A stretch of 64,000 nucleotides of DNA from Rhodovulum imhoffii (GTDB lineage: Bacteria > Pseudomonadota > Alphaproteobacteria > Rhodobacterales > Rhodobacteraceae). Position numbers and translations under genes: made by a program. Where the stretch lies: NCBI RefSeq assembly GCF_003046545.1, contig NZ_QAAA01000009.1, forward strand, positions 1-64,000, given 5' to 3'. Below the pieces are notes generated by a model that saw only the letters and a list, made by a program, of their open reading frames with translations, was not told the DNA's origin and made no database searches. Shown here piece by piece: positions 59,184 to 63,775 of this stretch (position 1 is the first letter of the stretch; the number at the start of each line of letters is the position of its first letter).

Positions 59184-60187
59184 TTGGCCTCGATCCTTTT
59201 GAGAATCGCATTGCCGGGTTCGGGGATCAACCGGTCCACCCGTGCGCGCAGCCCGGTCAGCGCCGGGTGTGACAGGTCGTTTTGCAGATGCCCCCAGACC
59301 CGCTGCATCAGTTTCAGGTAGCCGGGCTTGCCATCGCGCACGCACAGACGTGCGAAGACCCCGATAATACGCAGGTTGCGTTGTGCCCCCAGAACCGCAC
59401 AGGCGGCGCGGAAGGGGGCCTCCGGCAAGCCGGTGCGGGCCAGGTAACGGGCAATCATGCTTTCCGCCAGGGCTGGCGGCACATCGCGGCGCGCATCCTC
59501 CAGAAGCGAGATCAGATCATACGCCCGGTGTCCGGCCATCGCATCCTGAAAATCCAGAAGGCCGACTTGCGCCACCCCGCGACGCATCGGCAGCCACAGC
59601 AGGTTTTCGGCGTGGTAATCGCGCAGCACCAGAACCGGCGCAGTGTCGCAATGCTGGCGCAAGAGCGTCTCGACCACGGCGCGAAAGGCCGCGCGTTCTC
59701 CCGCATCGGTTCCGGCGTCCGCAGCGGGCAGATACCAGTCGAAGGGCTGGCACGCCATCTCGGCCATCAGGGGGGGGTCATAGGCGGCGATTCCCGCGGG
59801 CGGGGGGGTCTGGTGCAGGTTGGCGAGCAGGTCCGTTGCGGTTTCGTAGAGCATCTCCTCCAGGTCCGGCGCCCGCGGCACCACGCGGGCGTAGAGATCA
59901 TCGCCCAGATCCTCAAGCATTAAGAACCCGGATTCTGTATCCCGGGCCAGGATGCGCGGTGCGGAGAGACCAAGGGCCAGAAGATGTTCGGCGATGGTAA
60001 TGAACGGGCGGACGTCTTCGCCCCTTGCCGTATCCGCGTCCATCAGGACCGCGCGGGCGTTCGTATCCGGGTCTGTCAGGCGTTCGTACCGGCGGGCGGA
60101 GGCGTCGCCCGCCAGCGTGGTGCGCGTCGCTGCGCCCCAGCCGGAGGCTTCCACGAAACGGGTGGCCAGAAAGGCACGCTCAGTCAT
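59168..60187 (-). CDS. amgK: N-acetylmuramate/N-acetylglucosamine kinase (AmgK-type)
   Basis: A 339-residue aminoglycoside-phosphotransferase-fold kinase. The catalytic loop is LVLRDYHAENLLWL and the metal-binding loop VGLLDFQDAMAGHRAYDL. The N-terminal lobe has GDASARRYERL. Its location between tsaE and murU is the standard context of AmgK, which phosphorylates recycled MurNAc at the anomeric position. The ATG at 60187 overlaps the tsaE end by eight bases. Confidence 0.88.
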   Translation of the reverse strand: MTERAFLATRFVEASGWGAATRTTLAGDASARRYERLTDPDTNARAVLMDADTARGEDVRPFITIAEHLLALGLSAPRILARDTESGFLMLEDLGDDLYARVVPRAPDLEEMLYETATDLLANLHQTPPPAGIAAYDPPLMAEMACQPFDWYLPAADAGTDAGERAAFRAVVETLLRQHCDTAPVLVLRDYHAENLLWLPMRRGVAQVGLLDFQDAMAGHRAYDLISLLEDARRDVPPALAESMIARYLARTGLPEAPFRAACAVLGAQRNLRIIGVFARLCVRDGKPGYLKLMQRVWGHLQNDLSHPALTGLRARVDRLIPEPGNAILKRIEAKCPMP

Positions 60188-60668
60188 GGGGAAATCCTTC
60201 TTTTGCGGCTGTGACCACAGCGGCCCAGCGGGCATCGTCGGAAGACAACCTGAGATGCCGGAGGCCGGGGGTGTCCGTGACAGAGAAATGCAGGTGCAGC
60301 GCCCCTGGAGGCCCGAGGCCACCCAGGCGGTCGGGCCATTCAACCAGACACATGGCGGTGGAGAAGGCGTCTTCCAGGCCCAGTTCCAGCACATCGTCCG
60401 GGTGGGTCAGGCGGTAGAGGTCGGCATGCCAGATTTCCAGCCCGTCGCCGTCATAGGTTTGCACCAGCGTGAAGGTCGGGGAGGGCACGTCTTCGGGGAC
60501 CGGCAGGCGCGACTGGATCAGCGCACGGGCAAAGGCCGTTTTCCCGGCCCCGACCTGGCCATGCAAAAGCAGCACGTCCCCCTTGCGCAGCGCCGCGCCC
60601 AGACGGATGGCAAAGGCACGGGTTTCGGATTCGTCGCGGAACGTGACAGTCAGGGGCAAAGCGGTCAT
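60180..60668 (-). CDS. tsaE: tRNA threonylcarbamoyladenosine biosynthesis ATPase TsaE
   Basis: A 162-residue P-loop ATPase needed for the t6A modification of ANN-decoding tRNAs. Walker A is LLLHGQVGAGKTAFARALIQ; SPTFTLVQTYDG and IWHADLYRLTHPDDVLELGLED are family hallmarks. It heads the overlapping run amgK-murU-addB-addA-trxA and begins 42 bases after the DivL-like gene. Confidence 0.95.
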   Translation of the reverse strand: MTALPLTVTFRDESETRAFAIRLGAALRKGDVLLLHGQVGAGKTAFARALIQSRLPVPEDVPSPTFTLVQTYDGDGLEIWHADLYRLTHPDDVLELGLEDAFSTAMCLVEWPDRLGGLGPPGALHLHFSVTDTPGLRHLRLSSDDARWAAVVTAAKEGFPHD

Positions 60669-60710: not shown

Positions 60711-62282
60711 TCAGCGAAACGGTGCCGAAAGGGTGCTGCCCGCCGGGTTTGCCGCCCCCGCGCCCAGGGGAAGCCGAATGAACCCCACCATCAGCGCCCC
60801 CCCCGAAAGGGGGGCCACCCGTGTTTCCACTGGGATCCCATTGCGCATATGCAAAACGCCCGCCCACCCCGTGCGCCCGCCACTGGCCCACAGCGCGGTC
60901 TGCAATTTCTGCCACGCCGCGTCGTTCCGGAAGCGGCCTTGCCACCGGGCACCGGCCTCGGACAGCCCCAGCTCCCCCAGGGAATCCATCGGATCATGGC
61001 CCCACATCTGCGCATAAGCTGCGTTCGAGGTGGTCAGAACCCCGGCAGCATCGAAAACGGCGATGGCCTCCGGCATGGTATCCAGCACCGCCTGCCCGGT
61101 TTCCAGCTCCGCACGGAAACGGCGGGTCATGCAGATTTCCGCACTTATGTCCTGAAACAGGAAGGCGATTGCCCCGTCGGGGTGTAGCCGGCCGGTTACG
61201 CGATAGGTCAGCCCTGAGGGCAGCGTCCAGGTTTGCTCATAGGCATCGTTCTCGGCGTCACGCTCCAGCCGGGTGATTTGCTGGCGCCAGGATTTGTAGT
61301 TTTTGGGCTCAGGCATCATCCGGGTTTCGCGCAGCCGGTCGAGGACTTCCGTCAGGTGCGGGCGGGCGCCGAGGAACTCGGGCTCCAGGCCGCAAAGCCC
61401 TGTCAGTGCGGGGTTGAACAGAACCAGTTCCCGCGCGCGGTTGAACACGGCCAGCCCGATGGGCAGGTCGGCGAAGGTTTTCGTCAGGGTCTGGATGAAG
61501 TCGCGCAGCGACTTCTCGGCCTGCACGGCCGCGTCGGCAGGCAGGGCGAAATGCAGGCTGCCTTCCCCTTGCGGGACGGTCACGTGGTCGAACCAGAGCC
61601 GGGCCTCCTCCTTCAAAAGGGAGATGCGCCTGGGAACCGGGCGCCCGTTCGCTCCGGCCGCGCCCTCGTCCAGGAACAGGCGCGGCAGGGGCCAGGCCGG
61701 GGCTGCGGGTCCGCCCGGCCTCCGGAGAAGCCCGTCAAGGTAGGCGCGATTTGCCCAGATGACATCGCCTGCCTTGTCCTGCTGCCAGATCAGAACGGGT
61801 GCGGCCTCCAGCGCGGCGCGGTGGATTTCCAGCTCATCGTGCAAGGCGCGTACGGTGGCTTCGGCCGCGCCGCCGCGGTCCGGGCCCGTCAGAGTCAGGC
61901 GAAGGGTTTGCCGGTGCCTGCGGAGCCTCAGCGTGCCTGTGCCGCCGGGCTCATGAAGCACGACATCCTGTCCACCGGGCGCGCGGTCGTGCAAGGTCTT
62001 CAACTCTGTCTTCAGGTCGGGAAATCGGGGCCGCAGAATTGCCATCAGGCGCGGCCACTCGGGAAGATCGGGCGATCCGTGCGCCAGGATTTCCAGCGCC
62101 GCGGGAGAAGCATCGGCCAGCGATTGCCCCTCGAACAGGAAAACAGTGCCTTCGTCCTCCGACTGGGGGGGGCTTTTGCGCGGGCCGCGCGGGGGCAGGC
62201 ACGCCACAAGGACCAGCGCAACCAGCGCGGCGACCAGCGATGAGACGAGAAGCACCAGGGGAATTCCCCACGTGGGTGACAA
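60711..62282 (-). CDS. divL: PAS-domain membrane protein, DivL-like without a kinase domain
   Basis: A 523-residue protein with an N-terminal membrane anchor (IPLVLLVSSLVAALVALVLVACLP) and two or more PAS-like segments (ALEAAPVLIWQQDKAGDVIWAN; LPIGLAVFNRARELVLFN; MPEAIAVFDAAGVLTTSN). No HisKA or ATPase motifs follow; it ends shortly after the last PAS. In Rhodobacter capsulatus a PAS protein in this position near regB is called DivL and acts upstream of the CckA-ChpT-CtrA relay. I infer the same role from architecture and context. The start is a TTG with AAAGG five bases ahead. Confidence 0.72.
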   Translation of the reverse strand: MSPTWGIPLVLLVSSLVAALVALVLVACLPPRGPRKSPPQSEDEGTVFLFEGQSLADASPAALEILAHGSPDLPEWPRLMAILRPRFPDLKTELKTLHDRAPGGQDVVLHEPGGTGTLRLRRHRQTLRLTLTGPDRGGAAEATVRALHDELEIHRAALEAAPVLIWQQDKAGDVIWANRAYLDGLLRRPGGPAAPAWPLPRLFLDEGAAGANGRPVPRRISLLKEEARLWFDHVTVPQGEGSLHFALPADAAVQAEKSLRDFIQTLTKTFADLPIGLAVFNRARELVLFNPALTGLCGLEPEFLGARPHLTEVLDRLRETRMMPEPKNYKSWRQQITRLERDAENDAYEQTWTLPSGLTYRVTGRLHPDGAIAFLFQDISAEICMTRRFRAELETGQAVLDTMPEAIAVFDAAGVLTTSNAAYAQMWGHDPMDSLGELGLSEAGARWQGRFRNDAAWQKLQTALWASGGRTGWAGVLHMRNGIPVETRVAPLSGGALMVGFIRLPLGAGAANPAGSTLSAPFR

Positions 62283-62333
62283 ATCAACCTTTCCCAGGAT
62301 GACCTCAGGCTACAGGGCGAGTACACCTCAAAT

Positions 62334-62361
62334 TAGGTTAACAGTAGGTTAATTAGGTTAA
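62334..62361. promoter_or_regulatory. CtrA-type box in three TAGGTTAA repeats upstream of divL
   Basis: TAGGTTAA occurs at 62334, 62345 and 62354. Two of the copies create TTAA-N7-TTAA at 62338-62352, the classical full CtrA recognition pattern, and a third TTAA follows five bases on. Read on the minus strand the repeats are TTAACCTA, close to the TTAACCAT half-site. The cluster is 52-79 bases upstream of the divL start and just past the regB stop. Confidence 0.7.
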
Positions 62362-62383: not shown

Positions 62384-63775
62384 TCACGCCTCTATCCGCT
62401 GGTTTTCCCCCAGGGCAGAACCCGTTGCCGGGTCAGGCAGAACGGCTTCCAGGGACCAGATCACCTCGATCACGGCCCCGCTGCGCTCGGGCTGTTCGGT
62501 GCTGGCAAGAAAAGGATCCGATCCGTTGGCAAAGCTGAGCACCGCGCCCGTGCGTTCCAGCAGGGTCTTGGCGATGAACAGGCCAAGTCCCATCCCCTCA
62601 TATCCGGGGCGTTCGGGGGCCTCCTGTTCGGTCTTGCGCTTGCGCACGAACGGGTCCCCGATACGGCCGATCAGGTGGGGTGGGAAGCCGGGGCCGTCAT
62701 CCATGATGCGCACGGTCAGTTCGGAATCCGTCCAGTTGGCCTCAACCCAGACGGTCGTGGCGGCAAAATCCACCGCGTTCTGGATGAAGTTGCGCAGCCC
62801 GTGAATGATCTCCGGGCGGCGGCGGATTACCGGTTGTTGCGTCATGACGCCCGGCCCCGGCGCGACAGTGGAGATGATTTTCGTGCCCCGGTCCTGATGC
62901 GGCTCCGCAGCCTCGTTGATGACGCTGCCTATAGGGGCGGTGTGCATCTGAAGGTCGTCCTTACCGGCCCGGCCCATGGATCTCAGGATATCCCGGCAGC
63001 GGTCCGCCTGGTCGCGGATCAGCGCCGCGTCGTCGCGCAGGTCCTCCTTGTCGGACAAATCCTCCATCAACTCCGAACTGACCAGCTTGATCGTGGCCAG
63101 GGGCGTGCCCAGCTCATGGGCATAGGCCGCGACGACACCGCCAAGGTCGGTCAGTTTCTGCTCCCGCGCGAGGGCCATCTGCGTGGCCAGAAGCGCGTCC
63201 GACATTGAGTTGATCTCCGACGCGACGCGGCCCGCATAGAGCGCCAGGAACACGACTCCGATCACGATAGCGGCCCAGAACCCGAAAAGAAAAATCGGCG
63301 GAAGCTGTGGCATCGGCCCGCCGACGGTTGTCAGGGGCATGTAGAAAAAGACCAGGAATGTCGCTATCGTTATGGTGATGACGCCCATCAACAGCGTGGA
63401 CCGGAACCGCAGCGCCGTAGCGGAAATGATGACCGGAGTCAGAAGAAGCAGCGCAAACGGGTTGTTCAGCCCCCCCGACAAGAACAAGAGAAAAGAAAGC
63501 TGCCCAAGATCGAACAGCAGCGCCAGAAGGGTTTCCGATTCTGTCAGGCGTTTGCTTTCAGGGTAGACGAACAGCCAGATCATGTTGGCGATGATGGCGA
63601 TGCCGATGGCAAGAAGGCTCCAGCCCAGTTCCAGCCTGACATCGAAATTCACCCATGCAACGGTGATCGCGACAAGCTGGCCGGTGATGGCCACCCACCG
63701 CAGCAGAACCAGTGTCCGCAATCGAATCCAGTGGCTCCTTTCGATCGGGGCCTGCTGGTTTTTGGGGGTCTCCAT
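62384..63775 (-). CDS. regB: Redox-sensing histidine kinase RegB/PrrB
   Basis: A 463-residue membrane kinase with six N-terminal helices. The quinone-site heptapeptide GGLNNPF (residues 101-107), the phosphorylated His220 in AYAHELGTPLAT and the redox-active Cys260 in DRCRDIL are all present, as in RegB/PrrB of Rhodobacter. The ATPase region has GLRNFIQNAVDFA, IMDDGPGFP and GMGLGLFIAKTLLE. It phosphorylates RegA, which is expected beyond the right edge next to senC. It diverges from senC. Confidence 0.95.
   Translation of the reverse strand: METPKNQQAPIERSHWIRLRTLVLLRWVAITGQLVAITVAWVNFDVRLELGWSLLAIGIAIIANMIWLFVYPESKRLTESETLLALLFDLGQLSFLLFLSGGLNNPFALLLLTPVIISATALRFRSTLLMGVITITIATFLVFFYMPLTTVGGPMPQLPPIFLFGFWAAIVIGVVFLALYAGRVASEINSMSDALLATQMALAREQKLTDLGGVVAAYAHELGTPLATIKLVSSELMEDLSDKEDLRDDAALIRDQADRCRDILRSMGRAGKDDLQMHTAPIGSVINEAAEPHQDRGTKIISTVAPGPGVMTQQPVIRRRPEIIHGLRNFIQNAVDFAATTVWVEANWTDSELTVRIMDDGPGFPPHLIGRIGDPFVRKRKTEQEAPERPGYEGMGLGLFIAKTLLERTGAVLSFANGSDPFLASTEQPERSGAVIEVIWSLEAVLPDPATGSALGENQRIEA

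Follow-up and report, generated by a model that had tools for sequence, protein, structure and literature searches.

A conserved CtrA-type box upstream of the short-form divL gene of Rhodovulum imhoffii

Introduction

The systems closest to the one considered here have been described in other Rhodobacterales, and the account that follows draws on the accessible portions of the papers cited. In the circuit set out by Brilli 2010 for cluster B of the Rhodobacterales, DivL has no kinase domain and DivK is absent (PMC2877005), and CtrA was predicted to control itself, CckA and DivL (PMC2877005). A short DivL without DivK is regarded as a common trait of the order, degenerate long forms having also been described, and a short DivL accompanied by a probably transferred DivK is a published exception (PMC9430884). 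In Dinoroseobacter shibae, a CtrA site was reported in the promoter of divL (Dshi_3433), the expression of which was lower in ctrA, cckA and chpT mutants (Wang 2014, PMC4046655). A later study of this species, which made use of a scored matrix, gives predicted CtrA sites at ctrA and cckA, with divL unnamed in the accessible part of the paper (PMC6473078). In Rhodobacter capsulatus, divL was significantly down in ctrA knockouts and mildly up on ctrA overexpression, and CtrA firmly binds gafA (Fogg 2019, PMC6363796). The ctrA promoter of that organism carries the one-mismatch site GTAAC-N6-TTAAC (Fogg 2019, PMC6363796), at which unphosphorylated CtrA gave no detectable binding and CtrA D51E bound weakly; binding of CtrA to a TTAAC-N6-GTAAC site is also reported (PMC6363796). 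DivL of R. capsulatus is reported to promote the phosphorylation of CtrA (Westbye 2018, as cited in PMC9143464). At the Caulobacter pilA promoter, transcription is lowered by upstream CtrA sites that depart from the consensus and have a 6-bp spacing (PMC11264516). In one open-access library, no paper was found that deals with the regulation of Rhodovulum divL by CtrA or with the extra half-site described below.

Results

The window, by which is meant the whole 64-kb stretch of DNA that was analysed, carries a short-form divL orthologue at 60711..62282 on the minus strand, defined from the ORF list, Pfam and an AlphaFold2 model and encoding 523 aa from a TTG start. Read side by side with its relatives, this start (M-S-P-T-W) aligns with their ATG (for example, M-T-F-D-W in L023). 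A Pfam scan of the 523-aa protein returned PAS families only, with neither HisKA nor HATPase. In the AlphaFold2 model, an N-terminal membrane helix (residues 6-28) precedes four PAS-like folds (about 46-132, 164-248, 275-378 and 406-503) joined by helices, and no kinase fold or DHp/CA kinase domain was present, the secondary structure having been read by eye in both cases. The model was built on a 37-row alignment and reached a mean pLDDT of 84.8 with a pTM of 0.45, leaving domain placement uncertain. Its top Foldseek matches were PAS proteins, PpsR, DosP and FixL among them, and a search of PDB sequences with DivL gave a single weak match, to BvgS (E 0.011). Foldseek was set aside as a guide to the partners of DivL, the matches shown being mostly generic multi-PAS proteins and uninformative in this respect. 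The PAS region shares 21-31% identity with longer proteins from other families of the class; two of these were scanned with Pfam, and both contained HisKA and HATPase_c. By a test of length only, the 108 DivL orthologues considered below extend at most 74 aa beyond the matched region. The Rhodovulum imhoffii genome (2.9 Mb, 59 contigs) contains one divL match.

The upstream neighbour of the gene is regB (prrB), encoding a redox sensor kinase (62384..63775, minus strand; NCBIfam equivalog NF045988, 743 bits), the stop codon of which lies 31 nt upstream of the promoter box described below, on the same strand. Downstream lies tsaE (60180..60668, minus strand; PF02367/TIGR00150), beyond which a phosphotransferase-family gene, a nucleotidyltransferase gene and addB follow on the same strand. 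Across the 108 distinct loci, regB was found 5' of divL in 106 and tsaE 3' of it in 103, and tsaE is also located 3' of divL in some of the long forms. The PAS-only Pfam result, the modelled helix 6-28 and the RegB and TsaE neighbours agree with the earlier note, which had described a kinase-less PAS membrane protein in the DivL position near regB. Judged from its sequence and model, the protein is a family-typical short DivL, predicted to be a membrane-anchored four-PAS sensor that lacks the pseudokinase.

As had been claimed, TTAA-N7-TTAA lies upstream of divL, at one place in the window (62338..62352, minus strand). This full CtrA-type box, TTAACCTACTGTTAA, is 55 nt from the start codon, and its proximal half is TTAACCTAATTT. 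The word TTAACCTA is found here three times on the minus strand. Its first copy (62334..62341) includes the proximal half-site and its second (62345..62352) the distal half-site of the full box, both at conserved positions, while the third (62354..62361) supplies an extra upstream half-site that forms TTAA-N5-TTAA with the second. The presence of three TAGGTTAA repeats was confirmed, and so were the 52 and 79 bases that had been given as their distances from the start. The window contains TAGGTTAA three times, always at the divL promoter (62334, 62345 and 62354), a number reached in 0 of 100 shuffles; TTAA-N7-TTAA, which occurs once, appeared at least once in 5 of 100 shuffles and is marginal when taken alone. 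Genome-wide, the exact TTAA-N7-TTAA pattern was found at 12 places, versus 4 for a reversed control pattern, and TTAACCTA at 8, three of which are at the divL promoter, with 17 for its reversed control word. A sigma-70 type -10 element was looked for 3' of the box, with no clear enrichment.

The box stands above chance because it is conserved over 108 promoters, and not by virtue of the window itself. These promoters were drawn from 110 divL loci, of which 30 came from the genomes of relatives (Rhodovulum imhoffii included) and 80 were the best 80 of 193; two duplicates were removed, and each remaining sequence was counted with equal weight, whatever its relatedness to the others. In the stretch from -250 to +40 relative to the aligned start, the best box was exact in 97/108 promoters and had one mismatch in 11/108 (99/110 and 11/110 with the duplicates kept), beginning 95 to 31 nt upstream of the aligned start, with a median gap of 50 nt between box and start. 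An exact box was present inside the 150 nt 5' of the start in 97/108, compared with a mean of 0.3/108 and a maximum of 3/108 expected from mononucleotide shuffling (200 rounds). Alternative spacings of the two TTAA tetrads, from N0 to N12, were each seen in no more than 6/108 promoters, and the control pairs AATT, TATA, TTTA and TAAT in no more than 3/108. Both tetrads were nearly fixed, as was the C that follows the second (94%), giving the consensus TTAAC-N6-TTAACCATT over the 108 promoters, with little information in the flanks and spacer. Motif conservation upstream of orthologues, a check named beforehand, was therefore borne out by the exact and one-mismatch counts, and a chance origin of the box was rejected in view of the same conservation.

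The proximal half reads TTAACC in 73/108 promoters, the mirror form GGTTAA being found in 16/108, and the distal half reads TTAACC in 24/108. At least three TTAACC were present in Rhodovulum imhoffii only (0/107 of the other promoters). Since three TTAACC occur in just 1 of 108 genomes, the TAGGTTAA triplet was rejected as the key element. The absence of the repeats in near relatives, which the earlier note would have taken as evidence against its proposal, is real for the extra TAGGTTAA repeat and does not extend to the TTAA-N7-TTAA box. On the aligned promoter sequences, what has been conserved is the pair of tetrads, TTAA-N7-TTAA, the extra TAGGTTAA repeat being private to this genome.

Among the 11 boxes with one mismatch, eight (L050, L063, L079, L097, L104, L106, L127 and L139) have TTTA in place of the distal TTAA, seven of them as TTTACC. 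At two loci in relatives, G003:C1:2341333-2342843 and G024:C3:2932432-2933876, the divL match is split in two through a frameshift, a sequencing error or decay; the box is exact at the former and has one mismatch at the latter.

The relay genes of the same genome were also considered. Its CtrA and CckA were identified with query fragments of the two proteins, at 76% identity to the CtrA fragment and 82% to the CckA fragment; ChpT is present, with PF10090 above cut-off. Flagellin and GTA structural genes were found in the genome, so the outputs of the relay exist here. The exact boxes at divL, cckA and a chpT-side ORF make up 3 of the 12 genome-wide, the remaining nine having been listed by their neighbouring ORFs. 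The cckA box, TTAAGGCGTGTTTAACC, is located 48 nt 5' of the presumed GTG. An exact box was found in 20 of the 30 cckA loci fetched, and the 22 same-family loci (L140-L161) comprised 19 with an exact box, two with one mismatch and one without a scannable upstream region. The chpT-side box is exact and lies 51 nt 5' of a 65-aa ORF, the stop of which overlaps the chpT ATG; it is also 83 nt 5' of a divergent acyltransferase-like ORF, which makes its target ambiguous. The ctrA box, ATAACGTGTGGTTAACC, has one mismatch and is 57 nt 5' of the ATG. At ctrA loci, the best site had one mismatch in 28/30, was exact in 1/30 and had two mismatches in 1/30, the one-mismatch sites of several distant genomes being at least 115 nt upstream, where they may be due to chance. 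In all 22 same-family ctrA loci (L170-L190 and L192), the first T was replaced, giving GTAA or ATAA-N7-TTAAC. Compared with the mostly exact boxes at divL and cckA, this one-mismatch ctrA box (22/22) is perhaps a conserved weaker site.

Three copies of GTA_TIM hub proteins were seen in the genome. That at C2:34965-35855 (L228) is near terminase, portal and capsid genes in a GTA-like cluster. Of the ORFs scanned around the others, the copy at C15:12931-13827 (L227) is beside DUF2460, baseplate hub and NlpC/P60 genes, and that at C1:325385-326281 (L226) has a phage lysozyme gene nearby; these two copies may be prophage parts or extra GTA modules.

A survey of 61 genomes was used to relate the box to the kinase domain and to DivK; a divL-like match was found in 54, and the box was examined in 52 (G042 and G059 were left out). 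Among same-family genomes, 36/37 had a divL match (none in G029), with an exact box in 32, one mismatch in two (G024 and G019) and no box in two (G023 and G032). The exact box of G016 lies 141 nt 5' of a mechanically chosen start. Within the family, a strong DivK match was obtained for G023 and G032 only (72-73% identity), the match in G019 being at 45%. A Caulobacter DivK query had no match at E 1e-22 in the Rhodovulum imhoffii genome, where weaker receivers exist. Of seven family DivL proteins scanned with Pfam, those of G019, G023 and G032 had HisKA but no HATPase_c, and those of G016, G026, G030 and Rhodovulum imhoffii had neither domain; for the remaining 29, absence of the kinase was judged by length. 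The longer DivL proteins without recognisable HisKA (G016, G026 and G030) are accompanied by an exact box. In the G019 DivL (L204), the H-box-like stretch (SHRLRTPL) contains a histidine at the position occupied by tyrosine in five other long DivL proteins and by threonine in one (L206).

Outside the family, 14 of the 16 loci, with start codons assigned mechanically, had no box within one mismatch. The other two, G043 (exact) and G040 (one mismatch), both possess HisKA, HATPase and a DivK match, and the idea that the box is exclusive to kinase-less DivL is ruled out by them outside the family. In the 36 family genomes, the association between box and DivK gave a Fisher p of 0.0016, a value that ignores phylogeny and depends on two DivK-bearing genomes; one of the two is 82% complete, and its DivK match has one internal TGA. 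As far as these sequences indicate, the box accompanies the loss of DivK and of the kinase within the family, a link that is not strict outside it, the counts being phylogenetically non-independent.

Discussion

The box upstream of divL can very probably be taken for a CtrA site. CtrA probably activates the gene, because the box is found at a distance from the start like that of the cckA, chpT-side and ctrA boxes. CtrA, acting via the predicted box, would activate divL, and DivL would in turn raise the kinase activity of CckA; phosphate passed from CckA through ChpT to CtrA would then increase CtrA~P further, closing a positive loop. Such a loop would act on how much CtrA is phosphorylated relative to how much is not, at a point upstream of motility and of the release of GTA, and the extra half-site, N5 from the full box, may either raise or damp occupancy. 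The feedback loop through the CckA-ChpT-CtrA relay that had been suggested for DivL is thus favoured by the boxes at cckA, chpT-side and ctrA and by agreement with published relatives. It is further supported by the exact (97/108) and one-mismatch (11/108) boxes set against 0.3 in shuffled sequence, and by the lower divL expression of D. shibae and R. capsulatus strains that lack CtrA (PMC4046655, PMC6363796). Several observations, however, point the other way. A clear -10 element is missing downstream of the box, and the window alone is marginal against chance; kinship among the 108 sequences was ignored, 80 of the loci being the best 80 of 193. In the accessible published material, divL is unnamed among the D. 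shibae promoters with predicted CtrA sites (PMC6473078), ctrA overexpression raised R. capsulatus divL mildly (PMC6363796), and unphosphorylated CtrA showed no detectable binding at the one-mismatch ctrA promoter (PMC6363796).

A possible, if doubtful, history for the family is that the divL box replaced the DivK-pseudokinase branch in an ordered swap, post-translational control of CckA by DivK giving way to transcriptional control of DivL by CtrA, with the extra half-site tuning the loop in Rhodovulum imhoffii. G023 and G032, the two family genomes in which DivK is strongly matched, keep HisKA and have no box; G019, where HisKA is found together with a weak DivK-like match and a box with one mismatch, would be an intermediate; and G016, G026 and G030, which are longer and without recognisable HisKA, already carry the exact box. 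Outside the family, however, G043 has the box together with DivK and a full kinase, and the published short DivL alongside a probably transferred DivK (PMC9430884) also speaks against such an order.

Activation of divL by CtrA was weighed against other explanations of the box. Given that the loss of CtrA lowers divL expression in D. shibae and R. capsulatus (PMC4046655, PMC6363796), it is unlikely that CtrA binds there but mainly represses or fine-tunes the gene, with the N5-spaced half-site behaving like the Caulobacter pilA upstream sites. The TTAA-N5-TTAA arrangement directly 5' of the full box speaks for such an effect, as does the inhibition of pilA by upstream CtrA sites that depart from the consensus and are spaced by 6 bp (PMC11264516), yet the third TTAACC is found in 0/107 other promoters. 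Binding by another regulator of TTAA-rich sites, with CtrA acting on divL indirectly, is improbable. CtrA is proposed here from the motif alone, and R. capsulatus divL was 9-fold up without SqrR by RNA-seq, although a later test gave no change (PMC9143464). The N7 spacing, TTAACC half and position nevertheless correspond to those of the cckA and ctrA boxes of the same genome, the chpT-side box has the same spacing and position, the published CtrA consensus is identical (PMC4046655, PMC11264516), and CtrA binds TTAAC-N6-GTAAC in R. capsulatus (PMC6363796). A functionless chance AT-rich stretch behind regB, with divL read from the regB promoter, is scarcely credible, since the same-strand regB stop 31 nt from the box and the 5/100 window shuffles that yield one are outweighed by fixed-spacing tetrads in 97/108 promoters with flanks of little information.

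With CtrA as the probable activator of divL, the prediction that the sensor feeding CckA-ChpT-CtrA is a family-wide CtrA target is supported on 108 promoters, and models of the motility and GTA switch in this family should include a positive loop that runs through DivL. The association of the box with DivK loss and kinase loss offers a testable account of how a promoter site may have replaced a signalling branch, and in the extra half-site nature provides a promoter variant on which tuning could be studied.

The circuit itself is already in print, in the prediction of Brilli 2010 and in the D. shibae and R. capsulatus expression data, and Rhodovulum is a further instance of it; the additions made here are modest, and consist in the scale on which conservation was tested, in the chpT-side box, in the association of box, DivK and kinase, and in the private half-site. 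Like Rhodovulum DivL, the Caulobacter protein has a PAS sensor region, and its partner is CckA, as predicted for the Rhodovulum protein (PMC9430884, PMC6473078), but it keeps the DivK-binding pseudokinase that the latter lacks. R. capsulatus DivL (rcc00042) is a PAS protein like that of Rhodovulum, and its gene is lower in ctrA knockouts; the accessible parts of the relevant papers describe no promoter box for it (PMC9143464, PMC6363796, PMC6473078). A CtrA site at the divL promoter is common to D. shibae Dshi_3433 (PMC4046655) and to Rhodovulum, where it is predicted, whereas no TTAACCTA triplet is mentioned in the available text on the former, the authors of which call the homologue weakly conserved (PMC4046655). 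With the cluster B circuit, as far as the accessible text goes, Rhodovulum has in common a kinase-less DivL, the absence of DivK and predicted CtrA sites at ctrA, cckA and divL (PMC2877005), and to that circuit it adds the counts over 108 promoters, the chpT-side box and the private half-site.
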